A DNA stretch of 64,000 nt from Advenella incenata (GTDB taxonomy: Bacteria > Pseudomonadota > Gammaproteobacteria > Burkholderiales > Burkholderiaceae_B), in NCBI RefSeq assembly GCF_004217095.1, contig NZ_SHKO01000002.1:186001-250000 (forward strand). The letters are read 5' to 3'. The notes beneath the pieces are model-generated. The model did not search any database, was not told the origin of the DNA, and saw only the letters and a program-made list of their open reading frames with translations. The translations under genes were made by a program, and so were the position numbers. Shown here piece by piece: positions 1,327-34,641 of this stretch (positions are counted from its first letter, which is position 1; each line of letters starts with the position of its first letter).

Positions 1327-2073
1327 GTGAAGTTCGAAGCCATCAAATCCCGCTCCGTGTCGGAACTGGTTGCCCAGCGGTTGATCGATATGATCCGCAA
1401 GGGGCAACTGGTGGCTGGCCAGCAACTGCCGCCAGAGCGGGAGCTGGCGGTATTGTTCGATGTGGGCAGGCCCGCCGTCCGGGAAGCTATCCGGGGCCTG
1501 TCGCTGCTGGGGCTGGTCAAGATCCAGCAGGGTGAAGGCAATTTCATCAGCTCACTGAATGTGGAAGACCTGATCGAGCCGCTCAGCCTGCTGATTGACC
1601 TGCATTTTGACCAGATCAACGAACTGTTCGATGCGCGCAAGATTATCGAAGGTGGTATTACACGTCTGGCTTGCGAGCGGCTGACTGAAGCCGAAATCGA
1701 CCGTCTGCGAGTCAATGTAGAGGAAGCGCGCGCCGCGCTGGCCCGCAATGACCACGCAGCCATTCGCCATCTGGATATCGAACTGCATCAGACCATCATC
1801 AACGCCTGTGGCAATGTTTACCTGCAACGGGTGGCGCAAAGCATCAGTTTGCTCAGCCGCAAGAGCCGTACGATCACAACCGTCATTCCGTCGATCCTGC
1901 AATCGACCTTTGATGACCACGAACATATTGTGCGGGCGCTGGCCGAACGCAATCCGGCCAAGGCTTCCGAAGCCATGTACCGGCACCTGGATCATGTGCA
2001 GAAGCACTACAACGACTATCAGCAAGCCGGCGCAACGACACCGGCACATACAAACCAACAGGAGTCAGTATGA
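1327..2073 (+). CDS. GntR-family transcriptional regulator, FadR subfamily (FCD domain)
   Basis: This 248-residue protein has an N-terminal winged helix (about residues 5-75) with the family signature LPPERELAVLFDVGRPAVREAIRGL. A C-terminal FCD ligand domain (about 90-225) carries acidic and His residues (LDIELHQTI, DDHEHIVRAL, MYRHLDHV) that typically bind a metal and a carboxylate ligand. Such regulators usually sense sugar acids or lactate/pyruvate-like acids, which fits the catabolic genes that follow. The start is GTG, preceded by a purine-rich AAAAGAGA. Its stop overlaps the ATG of the FAH hydrolase (ATGA), so regulator and enzyme are co-translated. It probably controls the downstream cluster. 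Confidence 0.85.
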   Translation: MKFEAIKSRSVSELVAQRLIDMIRKGQLVAGQQLPPERELAVLFDVGRPAVREAIRGLSLLGLVKIQQGEGNFISSLNVEDLIEPLSLLIDLHFDQINELFDARKIIEGGITRLACERLTEAEIDRLRVNVEEARAALARNDHAAIRHLDIELHQTIINACGNVYLQRVAQSISLLSRKSRTITTVIPSILQSTFDDHEHIVRALAERNPAKASEAMYRHLDHVQKHYNDYQQAGATTPAHTNQQESV

Positions 2074-2915
2074 AACTCATTCGTTATGGGGAAAGCAAGC
2101 AGGAAAAACCGGGCATCGTCGATAGCGACGGCCGTATCCGTGATCTGTCCGGCGTCATCAGCGATGTCGACGGCAGCACCATCACAGAAAGCGGCCTGGC
2201 GCGCCTGCGCGGTCTGGATATCTCGACCCTGCCTGTTGTCGAAGGCAATCCGCGTGTTGGCCCCTGCGTTGGCAACATCGGCAAATTCGTTTGTATCGGA
2301 CTGAACTATTCGGATCATGCTGCTGAGTCTGGTCTGCCTGAGCCTTCGGAGCCTGTGGTCTTTAATAAGTGGACCAGCGCCATTGTTGGACCCAATGACG
2401 ACGTGGCCATTCCCCGCGGTTCGAAGAAGACCGACTGGGAAGTAGAGCTGGGCGTGGTGATCGGCAAGGAAGCACGTTACATCAGCAAGGAAGACGCACT
2501 CTCGCATGTGGCCGGCTATTGCGTGATCAATGACGTGTCGGAACGCGAGTACCAGACCGAGCGTGGCGGCACATGGGACAAGGGCAAGGGCTGCGACACA
2601 TTTGGTCCTATTGGCCCCTGGCTGGTGACGGCAGACGAGGTGCCTGATCCGCAGGCACTGAATCTGTGGCTGGAAGTAGATGGCAAACGCTATCAGGACG
2701 GCACCACTGCCAAAATGATTTTTGATGTTGCCACGATCATTTCGTATCTGAGCAATTTCATGAGTCTGCAGCCAGGCGATGTGATTTCCACAGGCACGCC
2801 ACCCGGCGTTGGCATGGGTGTCAAGCCTGAACCTGTTTACCTGAAGGCCGGCCAGACCATGCGTCTGGGCATCGAAGGCCTGGGTGAACAGACACAGAAA
2901 GTGGTGCAGGCCTAA
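2070..2915 (+). CDS. FAH-family hydrolase, probable 2,4-diketo-3-deoxy-sugar-acid hydrolase
   Basis: This 281-residue member of the fumarylacetoacetate hydrolase family has metal-ligand positions E124 and E126 (DWEVELGVVIG) and D155 (VINDVSERE), followed by a substrate loop and the conserved STGTPPGVGMG near residues 239-250. Enzymes of this length and pattern include 2,4-diketo-3-deoxy-L-rhamnonate/L-fuconate hydrolases, which split the diketo acid into pyruvate and lactate (or glycolate for pentonates). The neighbouring sugar-acid dehydratase, SDR and flavin oxidase support this. Some homologues are annotated ureidoglycolate lyase; no purine genes are nearby, so I consider that unlikely. 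It probably acts in the cytoplasm as a Mg-dependent enzyme. Confidence 0.8.
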   Translation: MKLIRYGESKQEKPGIVDSDGRIRDLSGVISDVDGSTITESGLARLRGLDISTLPVVEGNPRVGPCVGNIGKFVCIGLNYSDHAAESGLPEPSEPVVFNKWTSAIVGPNDDVAIPRGSKKTDWEVELGVVIGKEARYISKEDALSHVAGYCVINDVSEREYQTERGGTWDKGKGCDTFGPIGPWLVTADEVPDPQALNLWLEVDGKRYQDGTTAKMIFDVATIISYLSNFMSLQPGDVISTGTPPGVGMGVKPEPVYLKAGQTMRLGIEGLGEQTQKVVQA

Positions 2916-2927
2916 GGCTGGCACAAG

Positions 2928-2950
2928 CGCGGCGCGAAGGAGGCGCCGCG
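2928..2950 (+). terminator. GC-rich hairpin after the FAH hydrolase
   Basis: An 8-bp perfect stem (CGCGGCGC 2928-2935, GCGCCGCG 2943-2950) has a 7-nt loop. The following TTGCTTTAA is only moderately T-rich, so this may be a weak terminator or attenuator before the transporter genes rather than a full stop. Confidence 0.45.
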
Positions 2951-3151
2951 TTGCTTTAACCCTGAATGCCGCTTGTGTTATTCAGGTTGTTGATGAAGTC
3001 GGGCGTGCGATCACCGGAACAAGGTTGGTGCGATGCCAGACAGTGGTTGTAGATGTATAAAAATAGAACCGTCCGTCGCGCAATCCGTGTGTACGGACAC
3101 CACATCTCAGGAGCCCGGCTGCGCCGGGGCTGCCTGTAAACGGAGACAGAC

Positions 3152-4120
3152 ATGAACAAACGCAATATGCTCAAAGGGTTGCTGGGATTGACGTTGACAG
3201 TGGGCGCAGGCATGGCTCACGCCGCTTACCCCGAGCGTCCCATCACCATGATCGTGCCGTGGGGCGCAGGCGGCGGCACAGACGCCACGGCCCGCATGAT
3301 CGCGACCCTGCTGGAAAAAGAACTGGACAACCCGGTCAATGTGGTCAACCGCACAGGCGGCAATGGCGTGGTGGGGCATATGGCCATCTCCAAAGGCAAG
3401 CCTGATGGATACACGCTGGGCATGCTCACGGTAGAAATTGCCACCATGAAGCATCTGGGCCTGACCACCATTACCACTTCCGACTACACGCCTCTGGCCC
3501 TGATGAACGAGGACCCGGCCGGTGTGACCGTCAGTGCTACATCCGAATATAAAGACATGAAAGGGCTGATGGAGGCCATCAAGGCCAATCCCGGCAAGCT
3601 CAAAGCCTCTGGCACCGGCCAGGGCGGCATCTGGCATATCGCTATTGCCGGTCTGGTCAATAAAGCCGGCCTGCCAGCCAACTCGGTTCCTTTTGTTCCC
3701 TCCAACGGCTCGGCGCCTGCCATGCTGGAACTTGTTGCCGGCGGGATTGACATTGTTCCGACATCCTTGCCCGAAGCCCGCGCGATGATTGACGCCGAAA
3801 AAGCCAAGCCGCTGGCCATCATGGCCAAAGAGCGTTCACCCATGTACCCGGATGTGCCAACGTTGAAGGAAACCACCGGCAATGACTGGACCGTGGGCGT
3901 ATGGCGTGGCATTGCCGGTCCCAAGGGGCTGCCAGATGATGTGACCGCCAAGCTGGAAGCCGCACTCAAGAAAGTCAACGAGAGCAAGGAATTTCGTGAT
4001 TTCATGGCCAAGCGCGGTTTTGGTGTTGCCTATGCCAGCGGCAAGGAATATGGCGATTACATGGCCAAGTCCACCGCTGATTTCGGCGAGGTGCTCAAAG
4101 CCATCGGGATGGCCAAATAA
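3152..4120 (+). CDS. Bug/TctC-family periplasmic solute receptor of a TTT transporter
   Basis: This 322-residue protein has a signal peptide (cleavage near AHA/AYPERP, about residue 24). It then shows the Bug hallmark YPERPITMIVPWGAGGGTDATAR, whose loop contacts the carboxylate of the ligand, and the second conserved KPDGYTLG near residue 90. It captures a carboxylate in the periplasm and delivers it to the TctAB membrane pair encoded immediately downstream. GGAGA before the ATG supports the start. The ligand cannot be read from sequence; the setting suggests a sugar acid or keto acid. Confidence 0.9.
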   Translation: MNKRNMLKGLLGLTLTVGAGMAHAAYPERPITMIVPWGAGGGTDATARMIATLLEKELDNPVNVVNRTGGNGVVGHMAISKGKPDGYTLGMLTVEIATMKHLGLTTITTSDYTPLALMNEDPAGVTVSATSEYKDMKGLMEAIKANPGKLKASGTGQGGIWHIAIAGLVNKAGLPANSVPFVPSNGSAPAMLELVAGGIDIVPTSLPEARAMIDAEKAKPLAIMAKERSPMYPDVPTLKETTGNDWTVGVWRGIAGPKGLPDDVTAKLEAALKKVNESKEFRDFMAKRGFGVAYASGKEYGDYMAKSTADFGEVLKAIGMAK

Positions 4121-4197
4121 ACTGATATGAACCGGGTGGTCGGCCCCTTGCGCCTTGTGCGCACCGGACCGCACTGCCGACCCTGTGGACAATTCCC

Positions 4198-4665
4198 ATG
4201 AAGATCAGTGATACCCTTTCCGGCATTATCATCGGCATTTTTGCCATTATTGTTTTCGTAATGGCGCTGTCGTTTCCCCCTACACCCGGCCAGGAATATG
4301 GCTCGGGGCTATTTCCCCGGCTCATTGCGGTCGGCCTGCTTATTTGCGGCGTCTTTCTCATCGTGCAAAGCAGACGACGCAGGGACAACCAGCAGTGGCT
4401 GGCCTGGCCCGGCCTGAACACCGTTGCGCTCTTGCGTTTTTGCATGATTCCGGCTGTTCTCATTTTCTATTTTCTGACTGCAGACTTCCTGGGATTCTTT
4501 ATTTCATCCGGCATTATTCTGATGATCACGTTCCTGGTGTTTGGCGTCAAACCCGTGCGCGGCCTGATTCTGACCGTGATAAGCGTGCTGGTCATCCACT
4601 TCTCCTTCTACAATATTCTGCAAGTCCCGCTGCCCTGGGGATTGCTCGAAACCTTCGCGTGGTGA
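4198..4665 (+). CDS. TctB-family small membrane subunit of TTT transporter
   Basis: This 155-residue protein has about four hydrophobic segments (roughly residues 8-24, 40-57, 78-98 and 118-140), the layout of the small TctB subunit. Its sequence is poorly conserved as is usual for TctB; the call rests on topology and position between receptor and TctA. It pairs with the large subunit to carry the receptor-delivered solute across the inner membrane, driven by an ion gradient. Confidence 0.85.
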   Translation: MKISDTLSGIIIGIFAIIVFVMALSFPPTPGQEYGSGLFPRLIAVGLLICGVFLIVQSRRRRDNQQWLAWPGLNTVALLRFCMIPAVLIFYFLTADFLGFFISSGIILMITFLVFGVKPVRGLILTVISVLVIHFSFYNILQVPLPWGLLETFAW

Positions 4666-4669
4666 CCCT

Positions 4670-6208
4670 ATGTTCATGAGCAATTTTACTGCTGCACTGG
4701 GTCAGGTGACCGATCCGTTTGTGCTGGGCGTTATTCTGGTCGCCGCCATTTTCGGCCTTTTCGTAGGTGCTATCCCGGGCCTGAGCGCCACCATGGCCGT
4801 TGCCCTGCTGGTGCCGGTGACCTTTTTCATGGATGCCGTCCCTGCCATTGCCATGATGGTCACTTCGACCGCCATGGCCATTACATCGGGCGATGTGCCT
4901 GGATGTCTGCTGCGGATTCCCGGTACGCCATCGTCGGCGGCCTACACGGACGAAGCCTACAATATGACTCGCAAGGGCCTGGCGGATCAGGCACTGGGCG
5001 CCAGCATCGTGTTCTCTTTTGTGGGTGGTCTGTTTGGCACAATTGTGCTGATTACCTGCGCTCCCATGCTGGCCAACTTTGCATTGAATTTTTCTTCGTA
5101 TGAATTTTTCTGGCTGGTTGTGCTGGGTCTGTCCTGCTCCATTGTGATTACGCCAGCCAGCCAGCTCAAGGGTTTCGTCTCTCTGCTTATCGGCCTGTTG
5201 CTGGCCTGCGTGGGTATGAACAACCCGGCCGCCTATCCGCGGTTTACCTTCGGTAATGAAGACCTGATGAATGGCGTAACACTGCTGCCGATGATGGTGG
5301 GCATGTTCGCCATTGCCGAAGTGCTGCGTTATGCCGTCAATTCCGAAGACAAGCTGGGCGAAGTCAAAGCGCAGATCGGCAATATTTTTACCGGCATGTG
5401 GACGCTGACCAAAAAATACCCGATATCCATTTTGCGCGGAAGCGTGCTGGGTACGATTGTGGGTGCATTGCCGGGTGCCGGCGCCGATATTGCGGCCTGG
5501 ATGTCCTATGGTATGAGCAAGAAGTTTTCCAAAGAGCCGGAAAAATTTGGCACAGGGCATGTGGAAGGCATTGTAGAGGCTGGTGCATCGAATAATTCGG
5601 CGTTGGCTGGCGCCTGGATTCCGGCGCTGGTTTTCGGGATTCCGGGCGATTCTATTACCGCAATCGTGGTAGGTGTGCTGTACATGAAAAACCTCACCCC
5701 GGGGCCCATGATTTTTACCAATAATGCAGTTGAAATGTACTCCATTTTCCTGGTGTTCATTATTGCCAATATCCTGATGCTGCCGCTGGGCTATGCGTTG
5801 GTAAAAATTGCCAGAAACGTGCTGCAGGTGCCGCGTTCCTTGCTGATGCCTATCATATTACTGTTCAGTATTGTTGGCACGTTCGCTATCAACAACAGCC
5901 CGTTCGACGTGATCATCATGATGCTTATGGGTCTGCTGGCCTATGTCATGGAAGAAAATGAATTTCCCATCGCGCCGGCGGTGCTGGGCGTGGTGCTGGG
6001 CGGCATGCTCGAAGAAAACTTTATTTCATCCATGATCAAGGCTGACGGCGACTTCTCCATGTTCTTCAGCCGGCCCATTGCCGCCATTCTGGGCGTGGTG
6101 GCCATCCTGATCTGGACTATTCCCATTATCAAACTGTTCTTCGGTAAACCCAAGCCACCAGCCGGCGGCAACGGGGATCCGGTGACCAAACCAGGAATCA
6201 CGACATGA
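4670..6208 (+). CDS. TctA-family large membrane subunit of TTT transporter
   Basis: This 512-residue hydrophobic protein has about 11-12 membrane segments. It carries the duplicated TctA motifs, with GAIPGLSATMAVALLVP near the N-terminus and GALPGAGADIAAWMSYG in the middle, plus PGDSITAIVVGVLYMKNLTPGP. These loops form the substrate and ion path in the TctA family. Only 4 bases separate it from tctB, and its stop overlaps the next ATG (ATGA), so transporter and dehydrogenase are one transcription unit. A second ATG two codons in is an alternative start. Confidence 0.9.
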   Translation: MFMSNFTAALGQVTDPFVLGVILVAAIFGLFVGAIPGLSATMAVALLVPVTFFMDAVPAIAMMVTSTAMAITSGDVPGCLLRIPGTPSSAAYTDEAYNMTRKGLADQALGASIVFSFVGGLFGTIVLITCAPMLANFALNFSSYEFFWLVVLGLSCSIVITPASQLKGFVSLLIGLLLACVGMNNPAAYPRFTFGNEDLMNGVTLLPMMVGMFAIAEVLRYAVNSEDKLGEVKAQIGNIFTGMWTLTKKYPISILRGSVLGTIVGALPGAGADIAAWMSYGMSKKFSKEPEKFGTGHVEGIVEAGASNNSALAGAWIPALVFGIPGDSITAIVVGVLYMKNLTPGPMIFTNNAVEMYSIFLVFIIANILMLPLGYALVKIARNVLQVPRSLLMPIILLFSIVGTFAINNSPFDVIIMMLMGLLAYVMEENEFPIAPAVLGVVLGGMLEENFISSMIKADGDFSMFFSRPIAAILGVVAILIWTIPIIKLFFGKPKPPAGGNGDPVTKPGITT

Positions 6209-7287
6209 ACCAGACTGCCAACCTCGCTGTGCAACCGACCGGCGAGCGATATGACGCCGAGGCATTGCGCGAGTTTGCGCGTGCGCTGCTGGTGGCCGCA
6301 GGCACCTCGGACGACATTGCACGCAATGTATCGGATGTGCTGCTCGACGGGGATCTGCTGGGCCATACCACACACGGCCTGGCGCTGCTCAATCCCTACC
6401 TGCAGCAGATCGAACAGGGCAAGATGAGCACGCAAGGCAGCGCCGATATTGTCTCCGACAAAGGGGCATCGCTGCTGCTGGACGGGCGGCGCCTGCCGGG
6501 ACCGTGGCTGGTGAATCAGGCTATAGACATGCTGCTGCCGCGTGCGCGGCAATACGGCAACGCCACGGCAGTGATCCGCCAAAGCCATCACATTGCCTGC
6601 CTGGCCAGTTATCTGCTGCGGGCGGTGCGTGAAAACATGCTGATTGTGCTTAGCTGCTCCGATCCTTCGGGCCAGAGCGTTGCACCGTTTGGTGGTACCC
6701 GCGCCGTGTTCACGCCCAATCCGATTGCCGTTGGCATACCGTCGGCATCGCCCTTTCTGGTTGATATTTCGGCATCGATTACCACGAATGGTATGAGCGG
6801 TCGCCTGGCCAAGGAAGGTAAGCAATTCGAGGAAGAATGGCTGATCGACAGCGCCGGCAAGCCGACACGTGATCCCGCTGTGCTGTCGCAAGAGCCGCCA
6901 GGCACCATCTTGCCGCTGGGCGGCCTGTCGGTGGGACACAAGGGCTTTGGGCTGGCGCTGCTGATTGAAGCGCTGACCGGCGGTCTGGCCGGCCATGGCC
7001 GAGCCGACAACGTTCAGGGCTGGGGCGCGACGGTTTTCGTCAGTCTGTATGATCCGGCCGCTTTCGGTGGTAGCGACGCGTTTCTGCGCCAGATGGACTG
7101 GATTGCCGACGCCTGCCGCAACAATCCCCCTCGCGAAGGCTTTGACAATGTGCGCATGCCCGGGGATCGCGGCCTGGCATTGTATGAGCAGCAGAAGAAA
7201 AACGGCGTGCTCTTGCACCCATCCATTGCGCCGCTGCTGCAGGAATCGGCGCAAACCTATGGCATCGGCATGCCGGCCACACTTTAA
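6205..7287 (+). CDS. Malate/L-lactate dehydrogenase family (Ldh-2/YlbC-YiaK type) NAD(P)-dependent oxidoreductase
   Basis: This 360-residue protein has the non-Rossmann Ldh_2 fold: GHTTHGLALLNPYL (about 53-66), the catalytic His segment RQSHHIACLASYL, the FTPNPIAVGIPS cofactor loop and LPLGGLSVGHKGFGLALLIEALTGGL. Members reduce or oxidise 2-keto acids, 2,3-diketogulonate or ureidoglycolate. Translational coupling to tctA (ATGA overlap) suggests that it acts on the imported solute or its first product. A paralogue lies at 15670; the two differ clearly in length and sequence, so they probably act on different substrates. Confidence 0.8.
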   Translation: MNQTANLAVQPTGERYDAEALREFARALLVAAGTSDDIARNVSDVLLDGDLLGHTTHGLALLNPYLQQIEQGKMSTQGSADIVSDKGASLLLDGRRLPGPWLVNQAIDMLLPRARQYGNATAVIRQSHHIACLASYLLRAVRENMLIVLSCSDPSGQSVAPFGGTRAVFTPNPIAVGIPSASPFLVDISASITTNGMSGRLAKEGKQFEEEWLIDSAGKPTRDPAVLSQEPPGTILPLGGLSVGHKGFGLALLIEALTGGLAGHGRADNVQGWGATVFVSLYDPAAFGGSDAFLRQMDWIADACRNNPPREGFDNVRMPGDRGLALYEQQKKNGVLLHPSIAPLLQESAQTYGIGMPATL

Positions 7288-7306
7288 TTTACGACAAGGA
7301 TAGACA

Positions 7307-8059
7307 ATGAGTCAGAACAGTTTACAGAACCGGGTAGCCGTCATTACAGGCGGTGCACGCGGTATTGGCCTGGCTGCCGCAAAACGCATGCTCGAATCGG
7401 GTGCGTCGGTCGCGCTATGGGACCTTGATGCCGATCGGCTGGCGCAATCGCGCCAGCAACTGGACGCACTGGGCAAGGTGACTGCGCATGCGCTGGACCT
7501 GACCGATCTGGCCGCGGTGGAAAACGCAGCGACCGAGACGTTGCAGCAACATGGCAAGGTCGATATTCTGGTGAACAACGCCGGCATTACCGGTGGCAAC
7601 GGCGTGACCTGGGAGCTGGATCCGGCCGTATGGCAGCAGGTGGTGCAGACCAATTTGATGGCCCCGTACTATACCTGCCGCGTGCTGGTGCCTGCCATGT
7701 TGAAAAACGGCTATGGCCGCATCGTCAATATCGCCTCGATTGCCGGTAAAGAGGGCAATCCGAATGCATCGCATTACAGTGCCTCCAAGGCCGGGCTGAT
7801 CGGGCTGACCAAATCGCTGGGCAAGGAACTGGCCGAGCGCAATATTCTGGTCAACGCCATTACCCCGGCAGCGGCAAAGACTGAAATTTTCGATTCGATG
7901 TCGCAGGAACATATTGACTATATGTTGTCCCGGATTCCCATGAAGCGGTTTCTTGCCGTGGACGAGGCCGCCTCTATGATCTGCTGGCTGGCCTCGGAAG
8001 AATGTGCATTCAGTACAGGCGCCGTATTCGATCTGTCAGGCGGGCGGGCAACCTATTGA
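7307..8059 (+). CDS. Short-chain dehydrogenase/reductase (SDR)
   Basis: This 250-residue classical SDR has the cofactor motif TGGARGIG (14-21), NNAG (90-93) and catalytic S144, Y157 and K161 (YSASK). D39 after the second strand favours NAD over NADP. The C-terminal GAVFDLSGGRATY is typical of sugar-acid and 3-oxoacyl-type SDRs. In this cluster it is a candidate for oxidising a 2-keto-3-deoxy sugar acid at C4 to the diketo acid that the FAH enzyme at 2070 would hydrolyse. That role is inferred from context; the SDR fold and NAD use are read from the sequence. AAGGA precedes the start. Confidence 0.85.
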   Translation: MSQNSLQNRVAVITGGARGIGLAAAKRMLESGASVALWDLDADRLAQSRQQLDALGKVTAHALDLTDLAAVENAATETLQQHGKVDILVNNAGITGGNGVTWELDPAVWQQVVQTNLMAPYYTCRVLVPAMLKNGYGRIVNIASIAGKEGNPNASHYSASKAGLIGLTKSLGKELAERNILVNAITPAAAKTEIFDSMSQEHIDYMLSRIPMKRFLAVDEAASMICWLASEECAFSTGAVFDLSGGRATY

Positions 8060-8173
8060 CGACACCATAGCGTCACAAACCCGCGCGATTGTGTGCCATA
8101 CATGGGATGCAATGCAAAAAAAATGATACATGCAGCCAGAAGCCGCATGGCATCTTAGCAAAAGGAGATATTC

Positions 8174-8731
8174 ATGACGATATTGGAAAGTCCTGTTTTC
8201 CAATCGGTGGCAGCGATTACGCGAACGGTGGAAAAAACACTGACCTATGTACTGGGGCTTTGCGTACTGGTGATGCTGCTGCTGGTGTTCGGCAACGTCG
8301 TACTCAGGTACGGCTTTAACTCGGGCATCACCATTTCCGAGGAGGTCGCCCGGATGTCCTTCGTGTGGCTGATTTTTCTGGGCACTGTCATCGCGTTTCG
8401 CACCAAGCAACATCTTGGCGTGAACATGCTGCTGGACCGCCTGCCGGTCATGTTGCAGAAAATCATCCATATCCTGCGTCAACTCATCATCATGTGGATC
8501 CTCTGGCTGCTGATGCAGGGTGGCTGGGATCAGATGGTGATTGGCATGAATACGGCCTTGCCGGTTACCGGCTGGTCGCAGGCCCTGTTCAGCGGCATGG
8601 TGTGGTTCAGTGCGGTGGCCATGTTTGTCCTGGCCATCGGCGACATTGCCATTTCAATCATGACGCCGGCAGAGCGCAGCTATCAGCACCGTTTCAGAAC
8701 CGCGGTCGACACTGTCGATGACATGGAATAA
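8174..8731 (+). CDS. dctQ: TRAP transporter small membrane subunit (DctQ family)
   Basis: This 185-residue protein has four hydrophobic segments (about 28-48, 64-82, 100-118 and 137-157). It carries the DctQ hallmark FGNVVLRYGFNSGITISEE and a following W-rich segment ending in GTVIAFRTKQHLGV. It works with the DctM subunit directly downstream in a sodium-driven, receptor-dependent uptake system. A strong AAAAGGAGA supports the start. A 114-bp gap before it could carry its own promoter. Confidence 0.92.
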   Translation: MTILESPVFQSVAAITRTVEKTLTYVLGLCVLVMLLLVFGNVVLRYGFNSGITISEEVARMSFVWLIFLGTVIAFRTKQHLGVNMLLDRLPVMLQKIIHILRQLIIMWILWLLMQGGWDQMVIGMNTALPVTGWSQALFSGMVWFSAVAMFVLAIGDIAISIMTPAERSYQHRFRTAVDTVDDME

Positions 8732-8752
8732 CACGAGTAACAGGAAACCAGA

Positions 8753-10033
8753 ATGACCGTAACCATATTTCTTTCCGTGCTGCTTGGCTTTATGGCATTT
8801 GGCATGCCAATCGCCTTTGCACTGTTGCTCTCTGCCATTGGCCTGATGTTCTATCTGGACTTCTTTGATGTGCAGATTCTGGCCCAGAACATGCTGGCCG
8901 GTGCCGACAACTTCTCCCTGATGGCTGTCCCGCTTTTCATGCTGGCCGGCGAAGCTATGAATGCCGGCGGTATGTCCCGCCGCATGGTGGCCCTTGCCAG
9001 TTCTTTGGTGGGCCACGTGCATGGCGGGCTGGGCTATGTTGCCATTATGGCAAGCGTGTTGCTGGCCGCGCTCTCTGGCTCGGCGGTTGCCGATTCGGCC
9101 GCGCTGGCTGCCATGCTGGTGCCCATGCTGCGCAATCGTGGCTATGATCTGAAGCAGTCCTGCGGCCTGATCGCTGCTGGCGGCATTATTGCACCCATCA
9201 TTCCACCGTCCATCTCGTTCATTATTTTTGGCGTGGCTACCAATATTTCAGTGACTAAACTGTTCATGGCCGGCATTGTGCCCGGGCTGCTGATGGGCCT
9301 GACACTGGTTTTGGTATGGACGTTCGTAGCGCGCCGCTCCACCAGCTTCAAGCCCTTTCCAAAAGAGCCCTGGTCCGTCAGGGCCAAGGCGCTGCGTGAT
9401 TCGGGCTGGGCGCTGGTGCTGCCGGTCATCATTATCGGCGGTCTGCGCTTCGGTATTTTTACGCCAACAGAGGCGGCCGCTGTGGCGGCGGTCTACGCGC
9501 TGTTCGTGGGTATGGTGATATATCGCGAAATCAAGCCACGCGACTTGATGAAGCTGCTGGTCAACGCGGCTACTACCACCAGCGTGGTGATGTTCCTGGT
9601 GGCGGCGGCCCTGGTGACATCCTATATGATCACACTGGCCGATCTGCCCAAGGAACTGATTTCCCTGCTGGGTCCGCTGGTTGACTCGCCCACCTTGCTG
9701 ATGATCGTATTGGTGATTCTGCTCACGCTGGTTGGAACGGCCATGGATCTGACGCCGACGATCCTGATTCTGGCGCCGGTGCTGATGCCGGTGGTCAAAG
9801 AAGCCGGGATTGATCCCACTTACTTCGGAGTGATCTTCATCATGGTCGGTTGCGCCGGCCTGTTGACGCCACCCGTAGGAACCGTGCTGAATGTGGTCTG
9901 CGGCGTCGCCCGCATTCGCATGGAAGACATCATCAAGGGTGTATGGCCGTACGTGGCCGCCTACACTCTGCTGATTCTGCTGCTTGTGATTTTCCCGCAG
10001 ATTGTCACGGTACCGATGAACTGGTTCTATTGA
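8753..10033 (+). CDS. dctM: TRAP transporter large membrane subunit (DctM family)
   Basis: This 426-residue protein has about 12 membrane segments, with the DctM signatures FGMPIAFALLLSAIG near the start, GGIIAPIIPPSISFIIFG in the middle and LLTPPVGTVLNVVCGVARI near the end. It is the ion-coupled translocation subunit. A 21-bp gap to dctQ and a 32-bp gap to dctP show a standard dctQMP operon. Confidence 0.94.
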   Translation: MTVTIFLSVLLGFMAFGMPIAFALLLSAIGLMFYLDFFDVQILAQNMLAGADNFSLMAVPLFMLAGEAMNAGGMSRRMVALASSLVGHVHGGLGYVAIMASVLLAALSGSAVADSAALAAMLVPMLRNRGYDLKQSCGLIAAGGIIAPIIPPSISFIIFGVATNISVTKLFMAGIVPGLLMGLTLVLVWTFVARRSTSFKPFPKEPWSVRAKALRDSGWALVLPVIIIGGLRFGIFTPTEAAAVAAVYALFVGMVIYREIKPRDLMKLLVNAATTTSVVMFLVAAALVTSYMITLADLPKELISLLGPLVDSPTLLMIVLVILLTLVGTAMDLTPTILILAPVLMPVVKEAGIDPTYFGVIFIMVGCAGLLTPPVGTVLNVVCGVARIRMEDIIKGVWPYVAAYTLLILLLVIFPQIVTVPMNWFY

Positions 10034-10065
10034 TCTGCAACTATACCTATATCCTGGAGATGAAA

Positions 10066-11085
10066 ATGAAGACATTGAAAAAGACCGTTGTGGGCTTGAC
10101 AGCAGTAGCGCTGCTGGGCATGGGATCGGCGGCCGTATGGGCCAAGGACATCAAGCCACGCATTATCCGCTTTGGCTATGGCCTGGCCGATGACAGTCCG
10201 ACCGGCAAGGCGTCGGCGCACTTTGCCGAAGTGGTCAGCAAGCTGAGCGATGGCAAAATGAAGGTCAAGACTTTCGGCAATGGCGCCCTGGGCCCTGATG
10301 AACAATTGATCAATTCTCTGATCAGCGGTTCCGGAGAAATCACATTTGTGTCGACCGCACCGATTGCCAGTTTGATTCCCGAGTTCGGGGTATTTGACTT
10401 GCCGTTTCTGTTCGACAATGAAAAAGTAGCAGACGCAGTACTGGACGGCCCAGAAGGCAAGAAACTGCTGGACAAGCTGCCGGCCAAGGGGTTGATCGGA
10501 CTGAACTACTGGGAAAACGGCTTTCGCAATATCACTAACTCCCGTCATGAGATCTCCAAGCTGGATGATATCGGTGGCATCAAGCTGCGCGTGATGCAGA
10601 ACCAGGTGGCCTTGAGCGTGTTCAAGGGCCTGGGCGCCAATGCCATCCCTATGCCGTTTACGGAACTGTTTACTGCGCTGGAAACCAAAACGGTAGATGG
10701 CCAGGAGAACCCGCTGTCCACGATCCAGACCAGCAAATTCTATGAGGTCCAGCCCTACCTGACGCTGTCCAACCACGTGTATACGCCGTTTGTATTCCTG
10801 GCATCCAAGAAATGGTTTGATCAACTGTCCCAGGATGAAAAAGACGTCATTGTGCAAGCGGCCAAAGACAGCCAGGAATTTCAGCGCAAAGCCAGCCGTC
10901 AGGGCAATGAGGACGCACTCAAGTACCTGAAAGAGCACAACGTCAAGGTGGCCGAATTTTCTACCGAGGAAAAAGAGAAAATTCGTGAAAAAGTGGCACC
11001 GATTGTGGAAGGCCTGAAAGCCAAGATTGGCAAGGAAACAGTCGAAGGTGTACTGGAAGCGGCCAAAAAGGCTTCCGGCGCTTAA
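10066..11085 (+). CDS. dctP: TRAP transporter periplasmic solute-binding protein (DctP family)
   Basis: This 339-residue protein has a signal peptide (cleavage after VWA, about residue 26). The DctP fold shows KLRVMQNQVALSVFKGLGANAIPMPFTELFTALETKTVDGQENP (about 168-211), including the Arg that forms the salt bridge with the substrate carboxylate. The start at ATG 10066 is chosen because GGAG (10056-10059) lies 6 bases before it; ATG 10060 overlaps that site. The family position suggests a sugar-acid ligand such as a hexonate, pentonate or diketogulonate. Confidence 0.92.
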   Translation: MKTLKKTVVGLTAVALLGMGSAAVWAKDIKPRIIRFGYGLADDSPTGKASAHFAEVVSKLSDGKMKVKTFGNGALGPDEQLINSLISGSGEITFVSTAPIASLIPEFGVFDLPFLFDNEKVADAVLDGPEGKKLLDKLPAKGLIGLNYWENGFRNITNSRHEISKLDDIGGIKLRVMQNQVALSVFKGLGANAIPMPFTELFTALETKTVDGQENPLSTIQTSKFYEVQPYLTLSNHVYTPFVFLASKKWFDQLSQDEKDVIVQAAKDSQEFQRKASRQGNEDALKYLKEHNVKVAEFSTEEKEKIREKVAPIVEGLKAKIGKETVEGVLEAAKKASGA

Positions 11086-11118
11086 GTATTATTACAATTG
11101 AAATAGAAGGAACCCGTT

Positions 11119-12903
11119 ATGTCTACGTCAGAAAAAACGCCTTTGCGCAGCCGCCGGTGGTTTGATAATCCGGCCAATCCAGGCATGACCGCCCTGTATA
11201 TCGAACGCTACATGAATTACGGTATCACCAGGGAAGAACTGCAGTCGGGCAAGCCTATTATCGGCATTGCCCAAACGGGTTCCGATCTATCTCCATGTAA
11301 CCGGCATCACATAGAATTGGCTACACGGGTGCGTGATGGCATTCGTGATATGGGCGGGATTCCGCTGGAGTTCCCGGTCCATCCCATTCAGGAAACCGGC
11401 AAACGCCCGACCGCGGCCCTCGATCGCAACCTGGCCTATCTGGGCCTGGTTGAAATCCTGCACGGCTATCCGCTGGATGGCGTGGTGCTGACCACAGGCT
11501 GCGACAAAACCACGCCGGCATGCCTGATGGCGGCAGCCACCGTCAATATTCCTGCCATTGTGCTGTCGGGCGGACCCATGCTCGATGGCTGGTGGAAAGG
11601 CAAGCTGGCCGGCTCCGGCACTGTTGTCTGGGACGCGCGCAAGCGCCTGTCTGCCGGTGAGATCGGCTATGACGAATTCATGAACAATGTGGCCTCGTCC
11701 GCCCCCTCGGTGGGTCACTGCAATACCATGGGCACCGCACTGTCGATGAACTCCCTGGCTGAAGCTCTGGGCATGTCTCTGCCGGGCTGCGCTGCCATTC
11801 CAGGGCCGCATCGCGAGCGGGGCTGGATGGCCTATGAAACAGGGCGTCGCATTGTCGATATGGTTCGGGAAAATCTGCGCCCCTCCGATATCATGACCCG
11901 CGCCGCCTTTGAAAACGCGGTGGTCGCAGCCGCTGCGCTGGGCGGCTCATCCAACTGCCCGATTCATATGGTGGCCATTGCCCGCCATATGGGCGTCGAT
12001 CACACATTGGCAGACTGGCAGCGTCTGGGGCCAGACATTCCATTGTTGGTAGACTGTCAGCCTGCGGGGCGTTTCCTTGGGGAAGCGTTCCACCGTGCCG
12101 GGGGCGTACCGGCAGTGATGAAAGAGCTGCTGGATGCAGGCAAAATTGATGGTGCTGCCATGACCGTGACCGGCAAAACGCTGGCCGACAATCTGGCAGC
12201 GGTGCCAACTCCGGATCGCGAAGTCATTCGCGCCTACGACACACCGTTGCGAGAAGCTGCAGGCTACGTTGTCCTTACCGGCAATCTGTTTGACAACGCG
12301 GTGATCAAGACCAGCGTGATCGATGATAAATTCAGGGCTCGTTTCCTGTCTGACCCGGCGCGCCCCAATGTGATGGAGCTAAAGGCGGTGGTTTTTGAAG
12401 GGCCGGAAGACTATCACGATCGTATTGAAGATCCGGCACTGGGGATTGACGACAAATCCATTCTTGTTATTCGCAACAGCGGCCCGGTAGGCTACCCTGG
12501 CGGCGCAGAAGTGGTCAATATGCAGCCGCCGGCTTACCTGCTCAACAAGGGAATCGATACGCTGCCTACCATGGGCGATGGCCGTCAGAGTGGTACCTCG
12601 GCCAGCCCATCCATTCTGAACGTCTCGCCCGAATCGGCGGTCGGCGGGGGCCTTGCCTTGCTGCGCACCGGTGATATCGTTCGGGTTGATCTGAACACCT
12701 GTCGCGTAGATGTCCTGCTGCCTGAAGAGGAACTACAGGCTCGGCGTGCGGCATGGGTCAAACCGGAGCTGTTGAACATGACGCCGTGGGAAGAAATTTA
12801 CCGTGGTATGGTGGGCCAGCAGGGCGATGGTGCATGTCTGGAAGCGGCTACCGCCTATGTGGATATTATCCAGACACGGGGCGAATCGCGCGATAATCAT
12901 TAA
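11119..12903 (+). CDS. IlvD/Edd-family sugar-acid dehydratase (aldonate/pentonate dehydratase)
   Basis: This 594-residue protein is full length for the family. The three Fe-S ligand cysteines are at C60 (DLSPCN), C128 (TTGCDKTTPACLM) and C201 (GHCNTMGTA). The C-terminal substrate end has GPVGYPGGAEVVN, GDGRQSGTSASPSILNVSPESA and GDIVRVDLN. Close relatives with GGPMLDGWWKGK dehydrate L-arabinonate, D-xylonate or related aldonates to 2-keto-3-deoxy acids; dihydroxyacid dehydratase for branched-chain synthesis is less likely given this motif and the context. It stands immediately downstream of the TRAP genes (33 bp), so uptake and first catabolic step are linked. Confidence 0.88.
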   Translation: MSTSEKTPLRSRRWFDNPANPGMTALYIERYMNYGITREELQSGKPIIGIAQTGSDLSPCNRHHIELATRVRDGIRDMGGIPLEFPVHPIQETGKRPTAALDRNLAYLGLVEILHGYPLDGVVLTTGCDKTTPACLMAAATVNIPAIVLSGGPMLDGWWKGKLAGSGTVVWDARKRLSAGEIGYDEFMNNVASSAPSVGHCNTMGTALSMNSLAEALGMSLPGCAAIPGPHRERGWMAYETGRRIVDMVRENLRPSDIMTRAAFENAVVAAAALGGSSNCPIHMVAIARHMGVDHTLADWQRLGPDIPLLVDCQPAGRFLGEAFHRAGGVPAVMKELLDAGKIDGAAMTVTGKTLADNLAAVPTPDREVIRAYDTPLREAAGYVVLTGNLFDNAVIKTSVIDDKFRARFLSDPARPNVMELKAVVFEGPEDYHDRIEDPALGIDDKSILVIRNSGPVGYPGGAEVVNMQPPAYLLNKGIDTLPTMGDGRQSGTSASPSILNVSPESAVGGGLALLRTGDIVRVDLNTCRVDVLLPEEELQARRAAWVKPELLNMTPWEEIYRGMVGQQGDGACLEAATAYVDIIQTRGESRDNH

Positions 12904-13164
12904 TGTCATTTATCGTGGCTATTTTGTTTGCCGTTTCGTCTGCTATATTGGCAGCGAAATGGCGAGCAAATGGCACACAAATTGCAACCCAATTGCAGCG
13001 GGCTGCAGCAATGTCACAGCGCCCAGGTCTCGTGCCAACGCGGGGCGCAGTGCGCGGTAGCGCCGCTACAGGCAGGCATGAATCATGTCTGTCACTTTTT
13101 CATTCATTATTGACGCCTTGCCTGTGTCATACAACATAGCCAACAGCAGGGCAGCGAGCATACT

Positions 13165-14574
13165 ATGACAGTTCTGGACAAGAAAGCCATTCGTACCCTT
13201 CCCGAAGCCGCCATTGCCGCTTTTCGCCAGCGCTTCGGTGAGCGTTTCATTACCTCCATGGCCGTGCGCGAGCACCACGGTACCGACGAATCTCCCTATC
13301 CGGTGTGTCCACCCGAAGCAGTCATCTTTCCGCGCGACACCGATGAAGTGGTCGACGCTGTCAAAATCTGCAACCAGTACAAAGTACCGGTCATTCCTTT
13401 CGGCATTGGTTCATCGCTGGAAGGGCATGTGTTGCCCATCGAGGGTGGCGTCACGCTGGACTTTAACGAGATGAACAAGGTGCTGGCCATCAATGCCGAA
13501 GACTTCACCGTGACTGTGCAGCCGGGCGTGATCCGCACGCAGCTCAATGACGAGATCCGGCACACGGGTCTGTTCTTTCCCATCGATCCTGGAGCCCATG
13601 CATCCATCGGGGGCATGACCAGCACGCGCGCCTCGGGCACCAATGCCGTGCGCTACGGCACCATGCGCGAGAATGTGGTCTCCATGAAAGTGGTGACGGC
13701 GACCGGCAAGGTGATTCGCACCAGCAGTCGGGCCCGCAAATCTTCATCAGGTTACGACCTGACCCGTCTGTTTGTTGGCAGCGAAGGCACACTGGGCATC
13801 ATTGTCGAGGTGACCGTACGCGTCTATCCGCAACCCGAGGCGGTGACCGCAGCCATCTGCAATTTCCCCACGCTGGAGTCTGCGGTGCAGTCGGTGATTG
13901 AAATCATGCAGTCGGGCGTGGCCATTGCCCGGGTCGAATTCATGGACACCCGGGCGGTCAAGGCCGTCAATGCCTACAGCAAGCTCACGCTCAAGGAAAC
14001 ACCGCTGTTGCTGTTTGAATTTCATGGCAGCGAAACCGGCGTGCGCGAGCAGGCCGAGATCGTGCAGGAAATAGCCAAGGATAACGGCGGCATGGACTTT
14101 GAATGGGCAGAAAAGCCCGAAGATCGCAAACGTCTGTGGACGGCCCGTCATAATTCACACTATTCCGGCCTGCAATTGCGTCCTGGCTCGCGTTCGGTGG
14201 CGACCGATGTTTGCGTGCCGATTTCGCGGCTGGCCGAGTGTGTCAGCGAGACAGCCCAGGAACTCGAGGACATGCCCTTTCCGTACACCATCGTTGGGCA
14301 CGTGGGTGATGGCAACTTCCATGTGCAAATGCTGATCGATCCTGACAGCCGCGAAGAATGGGATATGTCCGAAGGCATCAATCGCCGGCTGGTATCGCGC
14401 GCCATTCGCATGGACGGTACCTGCTCGGGCGAGCACGGGGTGGGCATTCATAAAATGGAGTTCCTCAAAGAAGAGCATGGTGAGGACGCACTGCAATTGA
14501 TGCGGCTGATCAAGCATGCTTATGATCCCAACAATATTTTCAATCCGGGTAAACTGGTTTCCTGGGATGCGTAA
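13165..14574 (+). CDS. FAD-linked oxidase of the GlcD/D-lactate dehydrogenase family
   Basis: This 469-residue protein has a PCMH-type FAD domain (about residues 45-220; PFGIGSSLEGH and GGMTSTRASGTNAVRYGTM contact FAD) and a C-terminal FAD_oxidase_C domain with IVGHVGDGNFH and CSGEHGVGIHKMEFL. Family members oxidise D-2-hydroxy acids such as D-lactate or glycolate and pass electrons to quinone or cytochrome c. In this setting it could use the glycolate or lactate released by the FAH hydrolase. It is a single-protein type; no GlcE or GlcF subunit is nearby. The 261-bp gap upstream may hold its own promoter. Confidence 0.85.
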   Translation: MTVLDKKAIRTLPEAAIAAFRQRFGERFITSMAVREHHGTDESPYPVCPPEAVIFPRDTDEVVDAVKICNQYKVPVIPFGIGSSLEGHVLPIEGGVTLDFNEMNKVLAINAEDFTVTVQPGVIRTQLNDEIRHTGLFFPIDPGAHASIGGMTSTRASGTNAVRYGTMRENVVSMKVVTATGKVIRTSSRARKSSSGYDLTRLFVGSEGTLGIIVEVTVRVYPQPEAVTAAICNFPTLESAVQSVIEIMQSGVAIARVEFMDTRAVKAVNAYSKLTLKETPLLLFEFHGSETGVREQAEIVQEIAKDNGGMDFEWAEKPEDRKRLWTARHNSHYSGLQLRPGSRSVATDVCVPISRLAECVSETAQELEDMPFPYTIVGHVGDGNFHVQMLIDPDSREEWDMSEGINRRLVSRAIRMDGTCSGEHGVGIHKMEFLKEEHGEDALQLMRLIKHAYDPNNIFNPGKLVSWDA

Positions 14575-14710
14575 ATCACAGTTGAACTGATGGCGCGGGT
14601 GGTTGCTATGCAGTTGCTGCCCGTGCCTGGCTCAAAACCAATTCCGTGACGCGCCTTCTCTTGGAAGCGAGCCTGCGCCGGGTGAGATTAATTACAAAGG
14701 AAATACTGTC

Positions 14711-15340
14711 GTGGATACACTTGCCATTCTTAAGCGGGGCCCGGTCATGCCGGTCATGGTCATTCAATCGGTCGACGAGGCCCTGCAAGTTACCCGTGCG
14801 TTGCTGGACGGGGGCATTGACACATTTGAAATCACGCTGCGCACCCCCGCCGCACTCGATGGTGTGCGCGAACTGGTTAACGCATTTCCGCAAGCATTGA
14901 TCGGTGTCGGCACGGTACGGGATGCAGGCCAACTGGAAGCGGCGCTGCAGGCAGGTGCACGCTTTGCGGTCTCGCCTGGCCTGCCCGCAGCGCTGCTGCC
15001 GGCCCTGGCCGCCAACCGCATGCCTTTCCTGCCAGGCGTTGCCACGCCCACCGAGGCCATGAACGCCTTTGATGCCGGCTTTACCGCCCAAAAGCTTTTC
15101 CCGGCAGAAGCCGTAGGCGGGGTGCCGTTGATCAAATCGCTGTATAGCCCCTTGCCTGATATTGTTTTTTGTCCTACCGGCGGGATTCATGCGGCAAATG
15201 CAGCTGCTTATCTGGCGCTGCCCAACGTCGCCTGCGTAGGTGGCTCCTGGCTGGCGCCCGCAGATCTGGTGCTGGCTGGCGATTGGCAAGCAATCACGGC
15301 GCTGGCCGCCACCGCATTGGCACAGGCGCGCCAGGCCTGA
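14711..15340 (+). CDS. 2-dehydro-3-deoxy-phosphogluconate (KDPG/KDPGal-type) aldolase
   Basis: This 209-residue class I aldolase of the KDPG family has general-base E40 (TFEITLRTP), GVGTV, Schiff-base K128 (FTAQKLFPAEAVGG) and the phosphate-binding CPTGGI near the C-terminus. It splits a 2-keto-3-deoxy-6-phospho acid into pyruvate and glyceraldehyde 3-phosphate. I place the start at GTG 14711, which has AAAGGAAA 7 bases upstream and gives the normal family length; the frame is open further upstream without a comparable site. With the PfkB kinase at the left edge it would form a phosphorylative Entner-Doudoroff branch. Confidence 0.88.
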   Translation: MDTLAILKRGPVMPVMVIQSVDEALQVTRALLDGGIDTFEITLRTPAALDGVRELVNAFPQALIGVGTVRDAGQLEAALQAGARFAVSPGLPAALLPALAANRMPFLPGVATPTEAMNAFDAGFTAQKLFPAEAVGGVPLIKSLYSPLPDIVFCPTGGIHAANAAAYLALPNVACVGGSWLAPADLVLAGDWQAITALAATALAQARQA

Positions 15341-15669
15341 TCCTGGCCGTATTACAGGTGGCCACCCGGCGGCGGGGCCTGCTCACCGGTCTGCCGTTCA
15401 TCGGTGGCCCACGCTGGTCTTTTTACTGATCCTCTTTCTTTACTGATTCTCTTTCGTTTTCCGAAAAACAAGCAGCCTGCCCGGTGTGCGGCTGCTTGTT
15501 GTCGCTACGCTCCATCAAATTGCACGGGTGCACCGACAAATTGGCGGTGTTCCCGGCGATCTGCGGCAGTGCTGGACCTTCCTGAATTATCATTAGGTTG
15601 ATACAGGCCGTGTTGCGGATATCTCGCAGCACAGCCACGGATTACACACAACAATATGGACGAGGCAGC
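15341..15669. other. Gene-free stretch with an 11-bp perfect hairpin
   Basis: The region holds a perfect 11-bp inverted repeat (AACAAGCAGCC 15467-15477, GGCTGCTTGTT 15490-15500) with a 12-nt loop. The T tract lies only on the minus-strand side (A's at 15464-15468), which would suit a minus-strand transcript although both flanking genes are plus. No other gene or clear promoter was seen. Confidence 0.5.
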
Positions 15670-16665
15670 ATGAGCACAATTTCACTTTCTTCCCTGATTA
15701 CCCTGGCGCAGGACACACTGGCCGCCGCCGGGGCTAATCCGGCCATGGCCGAGACTACCGCCAAGGCGCTGGTCTTTGCCGATGCGCACGGCATTGCCAC
15801 GCATGGCGTATCGCGTGTACCCAGTTACGCGCTGCATCTGTCTTCAGGACGGGCCGACGGGGGCGCAGAACCGGAAATTGTGCAGGAAAAAGCATCGGCG
15901 CTGCTGGTGGATGCGCGTACCGGGCTGGCCTTTCCGGCCTGCGAACTGGCCATTACCACGGCGATAGAAAAGGCCAAACAGACCGGTATTTGCATTGCCG
16001 GGGTGACCAACAGCCATCATTTCGGCATGGCGGCCTACCATCTGGAGCCGGTAGCCCATGCCGGACTGATCGGTCTGGCTTTCAGCAACTCGCCATCGGC
16101 CATCACAGCTTGGGGCGGTAAGCGACCGTTGTTTGGCACCAATCCCATCGCAGCGGCTTTTCCGCGCGAGCAGGCCGAGCCGGTAGTGATTGACTTGTCT
16201 TTATCGCAGGTAGCCCGGGGTAAAGTCATTCTGGCCGCACGTGATGATAAACCCATTCCCGATGGCTGGGCGCTCGATAGCGAAGGCCGGCCCACCAATG
16301 ATGCCAAGGCCGCCCTCAAAGGCAGTATGCAGGCCGCTGGCGGCGTCAAGGGATCCATGCTGGCCCTGATGGTTGAAGTGCTCTGCGTGGCGCTTACCGG
16401 GGCCAATTTCGGCTATGAGGCCGATCCGCTTTATGATGATACCGGCAACGAACCCAGACTGGGTCAGGTATTTATTCTGATCGATCCACAGGCCCTGGCC
16501 GGCCAGCAGACGTATTTCAATCGTCTTGAAGATCTGATTGCCGCCATGCTGGAAGATGACGGGGTTCGCCTGCCCGGCGCGCGCCGTCATGATCTGGCCA
16601 ATACGGCGCAAGAAGAGGGCATCACGGTGCCCGACAGCCTGCTGGCGCAAATGGGATATCAATAA
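15670..16665 (+). CDS. Second malate/L-lactate dehydrogenase family (Ldh-2) oxidoreductase
   Basis: This 331-residue member of the same non-Rossmann family as the gene at 6205 has DAHGIATHGVSRVPSYA, the catalytic-His segment TNSHHFGMAAYH and FGTNPIAAAFPR. These are closer to the classical YbiC/YiaK/DpkA form, which reduces imine or diketo acids with NAD(P)H. ATG 15670 is chosen because GAGG lies just upstream and the protein then matches the family N-terminus; an in-frame upstream ATG (15598) would add 24 atypical residues. Its stop overlaps the next start by one base, linking it to the isomerase. Confidence 0.83.
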   Translation: MSTISLSSLITLAQDTLAAAGANPAMAETTAKALVFADAHGIATHGVSRVPSYALHLSSGRADGGAEPEIVQEKASALLVDARTGLAFPACELAITTAIEKAKQTGICIAGVTNSHHFGMAAYHLEPVAHAGLIGLAFSNSPSAITAWGGKRPLFGTNPIAAAFPREQAEPVVIDLSLSQVARGKVILAARDDKPIPDGWALDSEGRPTNDAKAALKGSMQAAGGVKGSMLALMVEVLCVALTGANFGYEADPLYDDTGNEPRLGQVFILIDPQALAGQQTYFNRLEDLIAAMLEDDGVRLPGARRHDLANTAQEEGITVPDSLLAQMGYQ

Positions 16666-34340: not shown

Positions 34341-34641
34341 GATCTGCTCCGTTTGTTGATAATACATTTGTCATAGACACTATGCTCACTTACAACATGT
34401 CCTGAAAACAAAGCAGCAGGCATGGCCAGCACTGTGTCAGATGCGATTTTGTCATTCTAGCACTGCTGTAAGTCAAATAACCGGGTCGTGAGCGCGGACA
34501 TTCGTTCCCATATGTTAATTGGCGTGGGCCACAACGGCCGGCCATAAAAAACCGGCGCCCCTTGCGGGAGCGCCGGTCATATACCAACAGCAAATGCACG
34601 ACATCATTTTGACCAGGCTGCAAGAGCCGGGTCAGCACTCA
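34341..34641. other. Gap between the glucose dehydrogenase and aldehyde dehydrogenase genes
   Basis: Both flanking genes are on the minus strand. The stretch holds the aldehyde dehydrogenase terminator (34545-34577) and, by position, the promoter of the glucose dehydrogenase. I see no gene. Confidence 0.5.
34545..34577 (-). terminator. Terminator of the aldehyde dehydrogenase gene
   Basis: On the minus strand ACCGGCGC pairs with GCGCCGGT (34551-34558 and 34570-34577), partly extended in the loop by CCC/GGG, and is followed by a run of T's (A's at 34545-34551). Confidence 0.85.

Follow-up and report, generated by a model that had tools for sequence, protein, structure and literature searches.

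A sugar-acid gene cluster of Advenella incenata with a CxaP-type TRAP importer and enzymes of a probable diketo route

Described relatives and the two importers

The gene cluster described here lies in a 64,000-nucleotide stretch of the Advenella incenata genome (the window, in which all positions below are given), and it very probably imports sugar acids and splits them non-phosphorylatively. Its closest described counterparts are the CxaP tripartite ATP-independent periplasmic (TRAP) system of Advenella mimigardefordensis DPN7T, the diketo Route III of Herbaspirillum huttiense and the L-rhamnose diketo route of Paraburkholderia. CxaP (PDB 7bbr) is quoted as binding D-xylonate, D-fuconate, D-galactonate and D-gluconate (PMC12076931), with reported Kd values of 1.9-8.0 uM (PMC11668362), and five sugars are reported to be imported only once oxidised in the periplasm (PMC5812351). 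Route III (C785_RS20555/RS20550) yields pyruvate and glycolate, and its dehydrogenase for L-2-keto-3-deoxypentonate (L-KDP) and L-2-keto-3-deoxyrhamnonate (L-KDR) is described as strictly stereoselective (PMC6336799). The pentonate diketo route to these two products, named in a first-pass annotation of the window, is thus a published one.

We read the cluster from a list of open reading frames (ORFs) and from family profile searches (Pfam, NCBIfam); all of its genes are on the + strand and all of its ORFs are intact. The TRAP gene set is complete: the genes for the small membrane protein DctQ (8174-8731, PF04290) and the large membrane protein DctM (8753-10033; PF06808, and TIGR00786 above cut-off) adjoin that for the sugar-acid binding protein DctP (10066-11085; start codon placed by alignment to 7bbr), a CxaP ortholog with 97% identity (329/339 residues; 718 bits to 7bbr). 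In one congener (G049) the protein is identical to CxaP at 339/339 residues and lies in the same gene cluster, from which we infer that this genome is that of A. mimigardefordensis DPN7T or of a very near relative. Our case differs from the described system in the genome concerned, and in that the surrounding enzymes were analysed for the present cluster. By analogy with the A. mimigardefordensis protein, the TRAP system would import aldonates; given this match to an aldonate binder, the earlier statement that the substrate is not known finds no support.

The second importer is of the tripartite tricarboxylate transporter (TTT) type, with the binding protein TctC (3152-4120, PF03401), the small membrane protein TctB (4198-4665, PF07331) and, presumably, the large membrane protein TctA (4670-6208). 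The last name rests on the position of the ORF after tctB and on its conservation with the other TTT genes; a scan of this ORF against NCBIfam alone gave zero matches. The two-transporter design, regarded as unusual at first pass, is real, and it recurs in two further genera (g5, g32) besides Advenella. This pairing across three genera deserves explanation; one rather unlikely reading is of a TTT system that takes a distinct substrate and is maintained within one gene cluster in all three.

The predicted route from aldonate to pyruvate

Three enzyme families carry the proposed pathway. The FAH-family hydrolase (2070-2915; NF053535 at 449 bits) has His83 and Glu86 as its His/Glu dyad and Glu124, Glu126 and Asp155 as acidic metal ligands, all in place, and its closest solved relative is the L-2,4-diketo-3-deoxyrhamnonate hydrolase 8gsr (344 bits); we regard it as a probable 2,4-diketo-3-deoxyaldonate hydrolase. 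The short-chain dehydrogenase/reductase (SDR; 7307-8059) has N116, S144, Y157 and K161 at positions that we take to form the catalytic tetrad, and it is basic at R247 and at R209, where the majority of relatives carry Lys. Its top PDB match, 6d9y (393 bits), is described as a putative L-KDR dehydrogenase, and the L-KDR/L-KDP type is reported to have a C4 selectivity opposite to that of the L-2-keto-3-deoxyfuconate (L-KDF) enzyme (PMC11199699). We thus assign it by homology as a putative 2-keto-3-deoxyaldonate 4-dehydrogenase of the L-KDR type. The third enzyme is an IlvD/Edd-type [Fe-S] aldonate dehydratase (11119-12903), which scores above the cut-off of NF009560 (1024.5 bits). It contains Cys60, Cys128 and Cys201, which we take to serve the Fe-S cluster. 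Among solved structures it scores 857 bits with 7m3k (galactonate dehydratase), 844 with 5oyn (xylonate dehydratase of Caulobacter) and 462 with 5j83 (L-arabinonate dehydratase), and two solved dehydratases of this type are reported to be strict at C2 and C3 (PMC9795676).

The genes named at first pass (FAH, SDR, IlvD, GlcD-type flavoprotein, TTT, TRAP and GntR) are thus all present, as are the three cysteines, and Glu124, Glu126 and Asp155 are where they had been placed. Family and PDB matches likewise support the proposed union of a dehydratase, a C4 dehydrogenase and a diketo-type FAH hydrolase with import. The first-pass interpretation is supported in part; FAH and SDR are nearest to enzymes of the L-rhamnose diketo type (8gsr, 6d9y), and IlvD to galactonate and xylonate dehydratases. 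The gene inventory had been drawn too narrowly, as 2070-14574; it missed an Ldh_2-family 2-hydroxyacid dehydrogenase (6205-7287; PF02615, 293.8 bits), placed the regulator (1327-2073) outside, and also omitted the flanking genes: dgoK and dgoA, which lie just before the window, and eda, which follows the cluster. As judged by annotation and not by direct alignment, the cluster shares with Route III its SDR type (via 6d9y) and its FAH family, in which His83 and Glu86 match in position; it differs in that the Advenella genes are linked with a CxaP-type TRAP system, a TTT system, an IlvD and a D-2-hydroxyacid flavoprotein.

L-Rhamnonate, L-arabinonate, D-galactonate and D-fuconate share one C4 configuration, which is inverted in D-xylonate, D-gluconate and L-fuconate. 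If the SDR behaves like that of Herbaspirillum, D-fuconate and D-galactonate alone among the quoted CxaP acids would therefore enter the diketo branch; L-arabinonate is, by analogy, a likely further substrate. Gene content, conserved order, the identity of the binding protein and the enzyme families with their key residues were observed; beyond these we infer a substrate list for this branch, an order of steps, and roles for the TTT system, Ldh_2 and the flavoprotein.

On balance we lean towards a pathway in which dehydration and C4 oxidation of acids of the L-KDR/L-KDP C4 type precede cleavage into pyruvate and D-lactate, glycolate or D-glycerate. Aldoses would be oxidised to aldonic acids in the periplasm, and the cluster would take these acids up and break down the ones not open to phosphorylation at C6. 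The CxaP-type TRAP system (8174-11085) would import acids of a C2-right, C3-left pattern, and IlvD would dehydrate the imported aldonate to a 2-keto-3-deoxyaldonate. The SDR would oxidise C4 just in the L-KDR/L-KDP configuration, which would admit D-fuconate, L-arabinonate and perhaps D-galactonate, and not D-xylonate or D-gluconate. FAH would then cleave the 2,4-diketo acid into pyruvate and a second product, which would be D-lactate with D-fuconate, glycolate with L-arabinonate and D-glycerate with D-galactonate; the flavoprotein, possibly with Ldh_2, would oxidise it. Because 6-deoxyhexonates and pentonates lack a C6 hydroxyl, they cannot use a route of the dgoK/dgoA type. With dgoK, dgoA and a PfkB-family kinase directly upstream, C6-hydroxylated acids have another route, and D-galactonate would accordingly gain an extra, phosphorylative one. 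A D-fuconate diketo route was not found in an open-access library of papers, as judged by titles and the beginnings of abstracts, which does not prove its absence.

Conservation, the flavoprotein and competing explanations

We surveyed 268 genomes of the family, of which 19 have a close ilvD (at least 80% identity), and read as much as about 20 kb around each of these genes. TRAP genes lie beside it in 16 (none in G115, G100 and G097), and TTT and TRAP together in 13: six Advenella including the window, four g5 and three g32. An SDR of the L-KDR type (at least 68%) is found at 10/19 loci and another SDR type at three; in genus g32 (L065), the SDR between TTT and TRAP is of such another type, with 32% identity to the cluster SDR and 4yqy as its best PDB match. 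Ldh_2 and FAH are each present at 9/19 loci, one FAH (G046) being partial at 185/281 residues. Gene order from gntR to a second Ldh_2 gene is identical in 5/5 congeners with FAH, and the cluster is therefore not a chance grouping. Within Advenella, 6/10 genomes have both FAH and ilvD, and 4/10 have neither at the thresholds used. FAH and GntR are outside the shared core, and TTT, SDR, TRAP, ilvD, the flavoprotein and, mostly, Ldh_2 are common to Advenella and g5; in L174, the single g5 genome inspected for this, the cluster is preceded by a divergent gene of the IclR type.

Turning to FAH, 28 loci outside the genus were chosen from the homolog list, and 10 of them have an SDR at least 47% identical to that of the cluster. 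DctM occurs at two and an IlvD of at least 50% at two, both being L065 and L073, and a flavoprotein of at least 50% at 0/28. Locus L073 (G176), from another family member, has FAH (65%), DctM (58%), IlvD (55%) and a GntR-like gene together. In Jiella and Fulvimarina (L125, L135), ilvD, SDR, FAH and tctCBA occur together with no TRAP in the stretch read, a simpler version of the set. In the partial FAH of G046 (L048), the remaining coding sequence follows in another frame, and the matches of dctM, tctA and Ldh_2 also start shifted, so that decay and sequencing errors are equally likely causes. A GC-rich stem directly 3' of FAH (2928-2950), without a T run, is largely kept in six Advenella genomes.

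The Ldh_2 protein (6205-7287) scores under the cut-off of all NCBIfam equivalogs. Its gene adjoins an SDR homolog (54-68%) in L062, L075, L173-L175, L187 and L188. Among eight further Ldh_2 loci, from 41 matching genomes, an SDR homolog of at least 49% is present in L187, L188, L190 and L191 and absent from L185, L186, L189 and L192. An in-genome SDR paralog (50%) lies in L064 amid matches to kinase, PdxA and KdgT models, of which PdxA alone is above cut-off.

Of special interest is the flavoprotein (13165-14574), a member of the LDHD/GlcD family of FAD D-2-hydroxyacid dehydrogenases; the adjacent genes, the only ones considered as GlcE or GlcF partners, are ilvD and eda. We rejected it as a GlcD equivalog (372.4 bits, against a cut-off of 567.9), and the entry named glycolate oxidase (9qgz) scores 230 bits. 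Its top solved relative is mouse LDHD (8jdc, 478 bits), with which it shares the family and the catalytic arginine, three metal ligands and histidine (R328, H379, H386, E423, H424). The two differ in the pocket, which has Leu85, His332, Ser344, Ala346 and Gln388 in place of Val101, Trp351, Ala363, Ser365 and Ile407 of the mouse enzyme; the hydrophobic side-chain pocket (subsite B) of LDHD is thus not found, as His332 and Gln388 replace Trp351 and Ile407. It is also unlike that of GlcD. The set is identical in 12/12 aligned orthologs from four genera (the window, five congeners, four g5, one g34 and one g12), and differs in an in-genome paralog of 74% identity (Ile, Tyr, Ala, Thr, Val), in another of 28%, and in homologs of 52% and 41% in L165 and L163. 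Mouse LDHD is reported to act on D- and not L-2-hydroxyacids and to be inactive on glycolate and hydrophilic D-2-hydroxyacids (PMC10589216). As LDHD refuses such acids, the polar pocket hints at a different substrate for the flavoprotein; candidates are D-lactate, glycolate, D-glycerate or an aldonate. The conserved pocket sets apart a group of flavoproteins.

Several observations weigh against the diketo route we favour. FAH reaches 449.4 bits against NF053535 (2,4-didehydro-3-deoxy-L-rhamnonate hydrolase), under the curated cut-off of 500, and so belongs to the same family but is not classed as that equivalog; its homologs are common (174/268 genomes at E 1e-70 or better). All four g5 genomes, which have TTT, SDR, TRAP, ilvD and the flavoprotein, lack FAH within about 20 kb and encode it elsewhere, so that FAH is not an obligate neighbor. 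The closest IlvD structures are the galactonate and xylonate dehydratases, and not the type best on D-fuconate or L-arabinonate. Ldh_2 enzymes are mostly L-specific, which is a mismatch with D-acids, and the polar flavoprotein pocket argues against D-lactate as the best substrate. Of the four ligands quoted for CxaP, D-xylonate and D-gluconate have a C4 configuration that does not suit this SDR; L-arabinonate is outside the ligands quoted (PMC12076931). The activities of the cluster enzymes are predictions.

One competing explanation, in which L-rhamnonate or L-fuconate yields pyruvate and L-lactate, or a pentonate yields glycolate that the flavin oxidase consumes, follows the first-pass annotation and appears quite improbable. 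The L-rhamnose diketo route uses enzymes of these FAH and SDR families, Ldh_2 could oxidise L-lactate, and the pentonate half overlaps with our own proposal via L-arabinonate. Among the best 80 named SDR loci, within the stretch examined at each, a homolog of L-rhamnonate dehydratase (at least 50%) occurs at 22, with SDRs 67-74% identical to ours. An IlvD homolog (at least 55%) occurs at 19, one of them Advenella sp. S44, and neither dehydratase at 39, of which just 19 have a stretch above 15 kb. At the P. graminis locus of the Paraburkholderia route (L090; SDR 72%), the sole one checked by model, L-rhamnonate dehydratase reaches 782 bits against a cut-off of 393. However, the dehydratase there is enolase-type and that of the Advenella cluster IlvD-type, and a profile search found no L-rhamnonate dehydratase above cut-off in the genome (best 191.3 bits); L-rhamnonate is rejected as a substrate on this score. 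The TRAP protein is orthologous to CxaP, whose quoted ligands are D-sugar acids (PMC12076931), and the C4 selectivity of the SDR type is opposite to that of the L-KDF enzyme. This SDR type is all that disfavours L-fuconate, for which a dehydratase was not searched for. Consumption of glycolate by the flavin oxidase is possible, but its nearest relative LDHD is D-specific and inactive on glycolate, its pocket resembles neither LDHD nor GlcD, and in two genomes its gene follows ilvD with no SDR or FAH in the stretch read.

These genomes, G207 and G115, are among the 12/19 with a close ilvD in which the flavoprotein gene follows it, and they bear on a second explanation, which we hold to be a genuine possibility somewhat short of even: that the flavoprotein carries out a step tied to IlvD and TRAP, with a polar D-2-hydroxyacid such as D-glycerate or an aldonate as its substrate and not lactate or glycolate. 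The fixed His332, Ser344, Ala346 and Gln388 of the 12 orthologs, missing from the two aligned in-genome paralogs, speak for it. Against this, FAH homologs sit elsewhere in G207 and G115, outside the stretch read, and D-glycerate would remain a second product of D-galactonate; the explanation is a prediction from sequence and is compatible with the diketo route. Rather unlikely is a third, in which IlvD is a general point of aldonate dehydration that feeds mainly kinases and aldolases (dgoK/dgoA, PfkB and eda), the SDR and FAH being minor or serving a separate TTT substrate. The flanking dgoK, dgoA, PfkB kinase and eda fit it, as do the nearness of IlvD to galactonate and xylonate dehydratases and the SDR-Ldh_2 pairs that lack TRAP and a close IlvD in L062 (with TTT), L075, L187 and L188. 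Yet 6-deoxyhexonates and pentonates offer no C6 hydroxyl for phosphorylation, and D-fuconate and D-xylonate are both among the quoted CxaP ligands.

Regulation, neighboring genes and meaning

The regulator gene gntR (1327-2073) encodes a GntR/FCD-family protein (Pfam GntR and FCD) whose every NCBIfam match is under cut-off, the top one being NanR. It overlaps the FAH ORF by 4 bases, and Ldh_2 overlaps the end of tctA. A pattern scan found the palindrome TGGTCTTACCA at 1231-1241 upstream of gntR, which resembles the consensus of a GntR/FadR-type operator. It is upstream of gntR in 6/6 Advenella genomes (the window and L044-L048), at 96-105 bases before the start codon in five; L087, the same contig as L046, was left out, and L047 was counted for presence only. 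The strict pattern TGGTNNNACCA has two matches in the window's first 20 kb, at 1231 and at 19251 (inside a coding gene), and is absent from the intergenic gaps between FAH and the second Ldh_2 gene; its variant with a 4-base spacer has two matches, at 7640 and 11482, both within coding genes. Three of the five congeners (L044, L046, L048) have one extra match, inside dctP.

Between ilvD and the flavoprotein gene, a scan found a terminator-like 10-pair stem with a T run (13071-13093, + strand), the longest of 21 terminator-like matches and kept, by eye, in 3/6 genomes; it could separate the flavoprotein gene from the upstream unit. Terminator-like matches (21 versus 16.8 in shuffles) and promoter-like ones (13 versus 10.1) are both near chance. 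The single regulon proposed at first pass is thus plausible up to ilvD and uncertain beyond, because there is one GntR-like site, before gntR, and a terminator-like stem after ilvD.

Upstream of the window (L086, G000 C2:180571-186364) lie two adjacent GlcD-type flavoproteins, one of them 74% identical to that of the cluster, followed by dgoK (PF05035, 294 bits), the 2-dehydro-3-deoxy-6-phosphogalactonate aldolase gene dgoA (287 bits, cut-off 207) and the PfkB-family sugar kinase, whose end falls within the window near 367. Between this kinase and gntR we noted by eye a small Phd/YefM-antitoxin-like ORF (about 471-769) and a ParE/RelE-like ORF (772-1173). Downstream on the + strand are a KDPG/KHG aldolase of the eda type (14705-15340, start approximate; NF004325 above cut-off), the second Ldh_2 gene (15670-16665, family search) and the 2-oxo-tetronate isomerase OtnI (16665-17477; 352.9 bits against a cut-off of 325); an aldose epimerase follows. 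The second Ldh_2 gene probably forms a separate unit with OtnI; the block TTCCTGAATTATCATTAG upstream of it (15579-15596), present in 6/6 Advenella genomes, is a possible control site of that unit. A membrane pyrroloquinoline quinone (PQQ) dehydrogenase of the glucose/quinate type (31857-34367; 1096 bits, cut-off 833), one of three above cut-off in the genome, is a candidate for the periplasmic oxidation step.

The cluster is an ordinary, well-organised catabolic set, with an importer characterised in a sister species and a route of a published kind. It ties a biochemically studied TRAP importer, by stereochemistry, to its likely catabolic route, and yields predictions as to which imported acids would go to the diketo branch and which to kinases. 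Interest centres on what the flavoprotein acts on, why two transporters occur together, and the D-fuconate branch that we predict.

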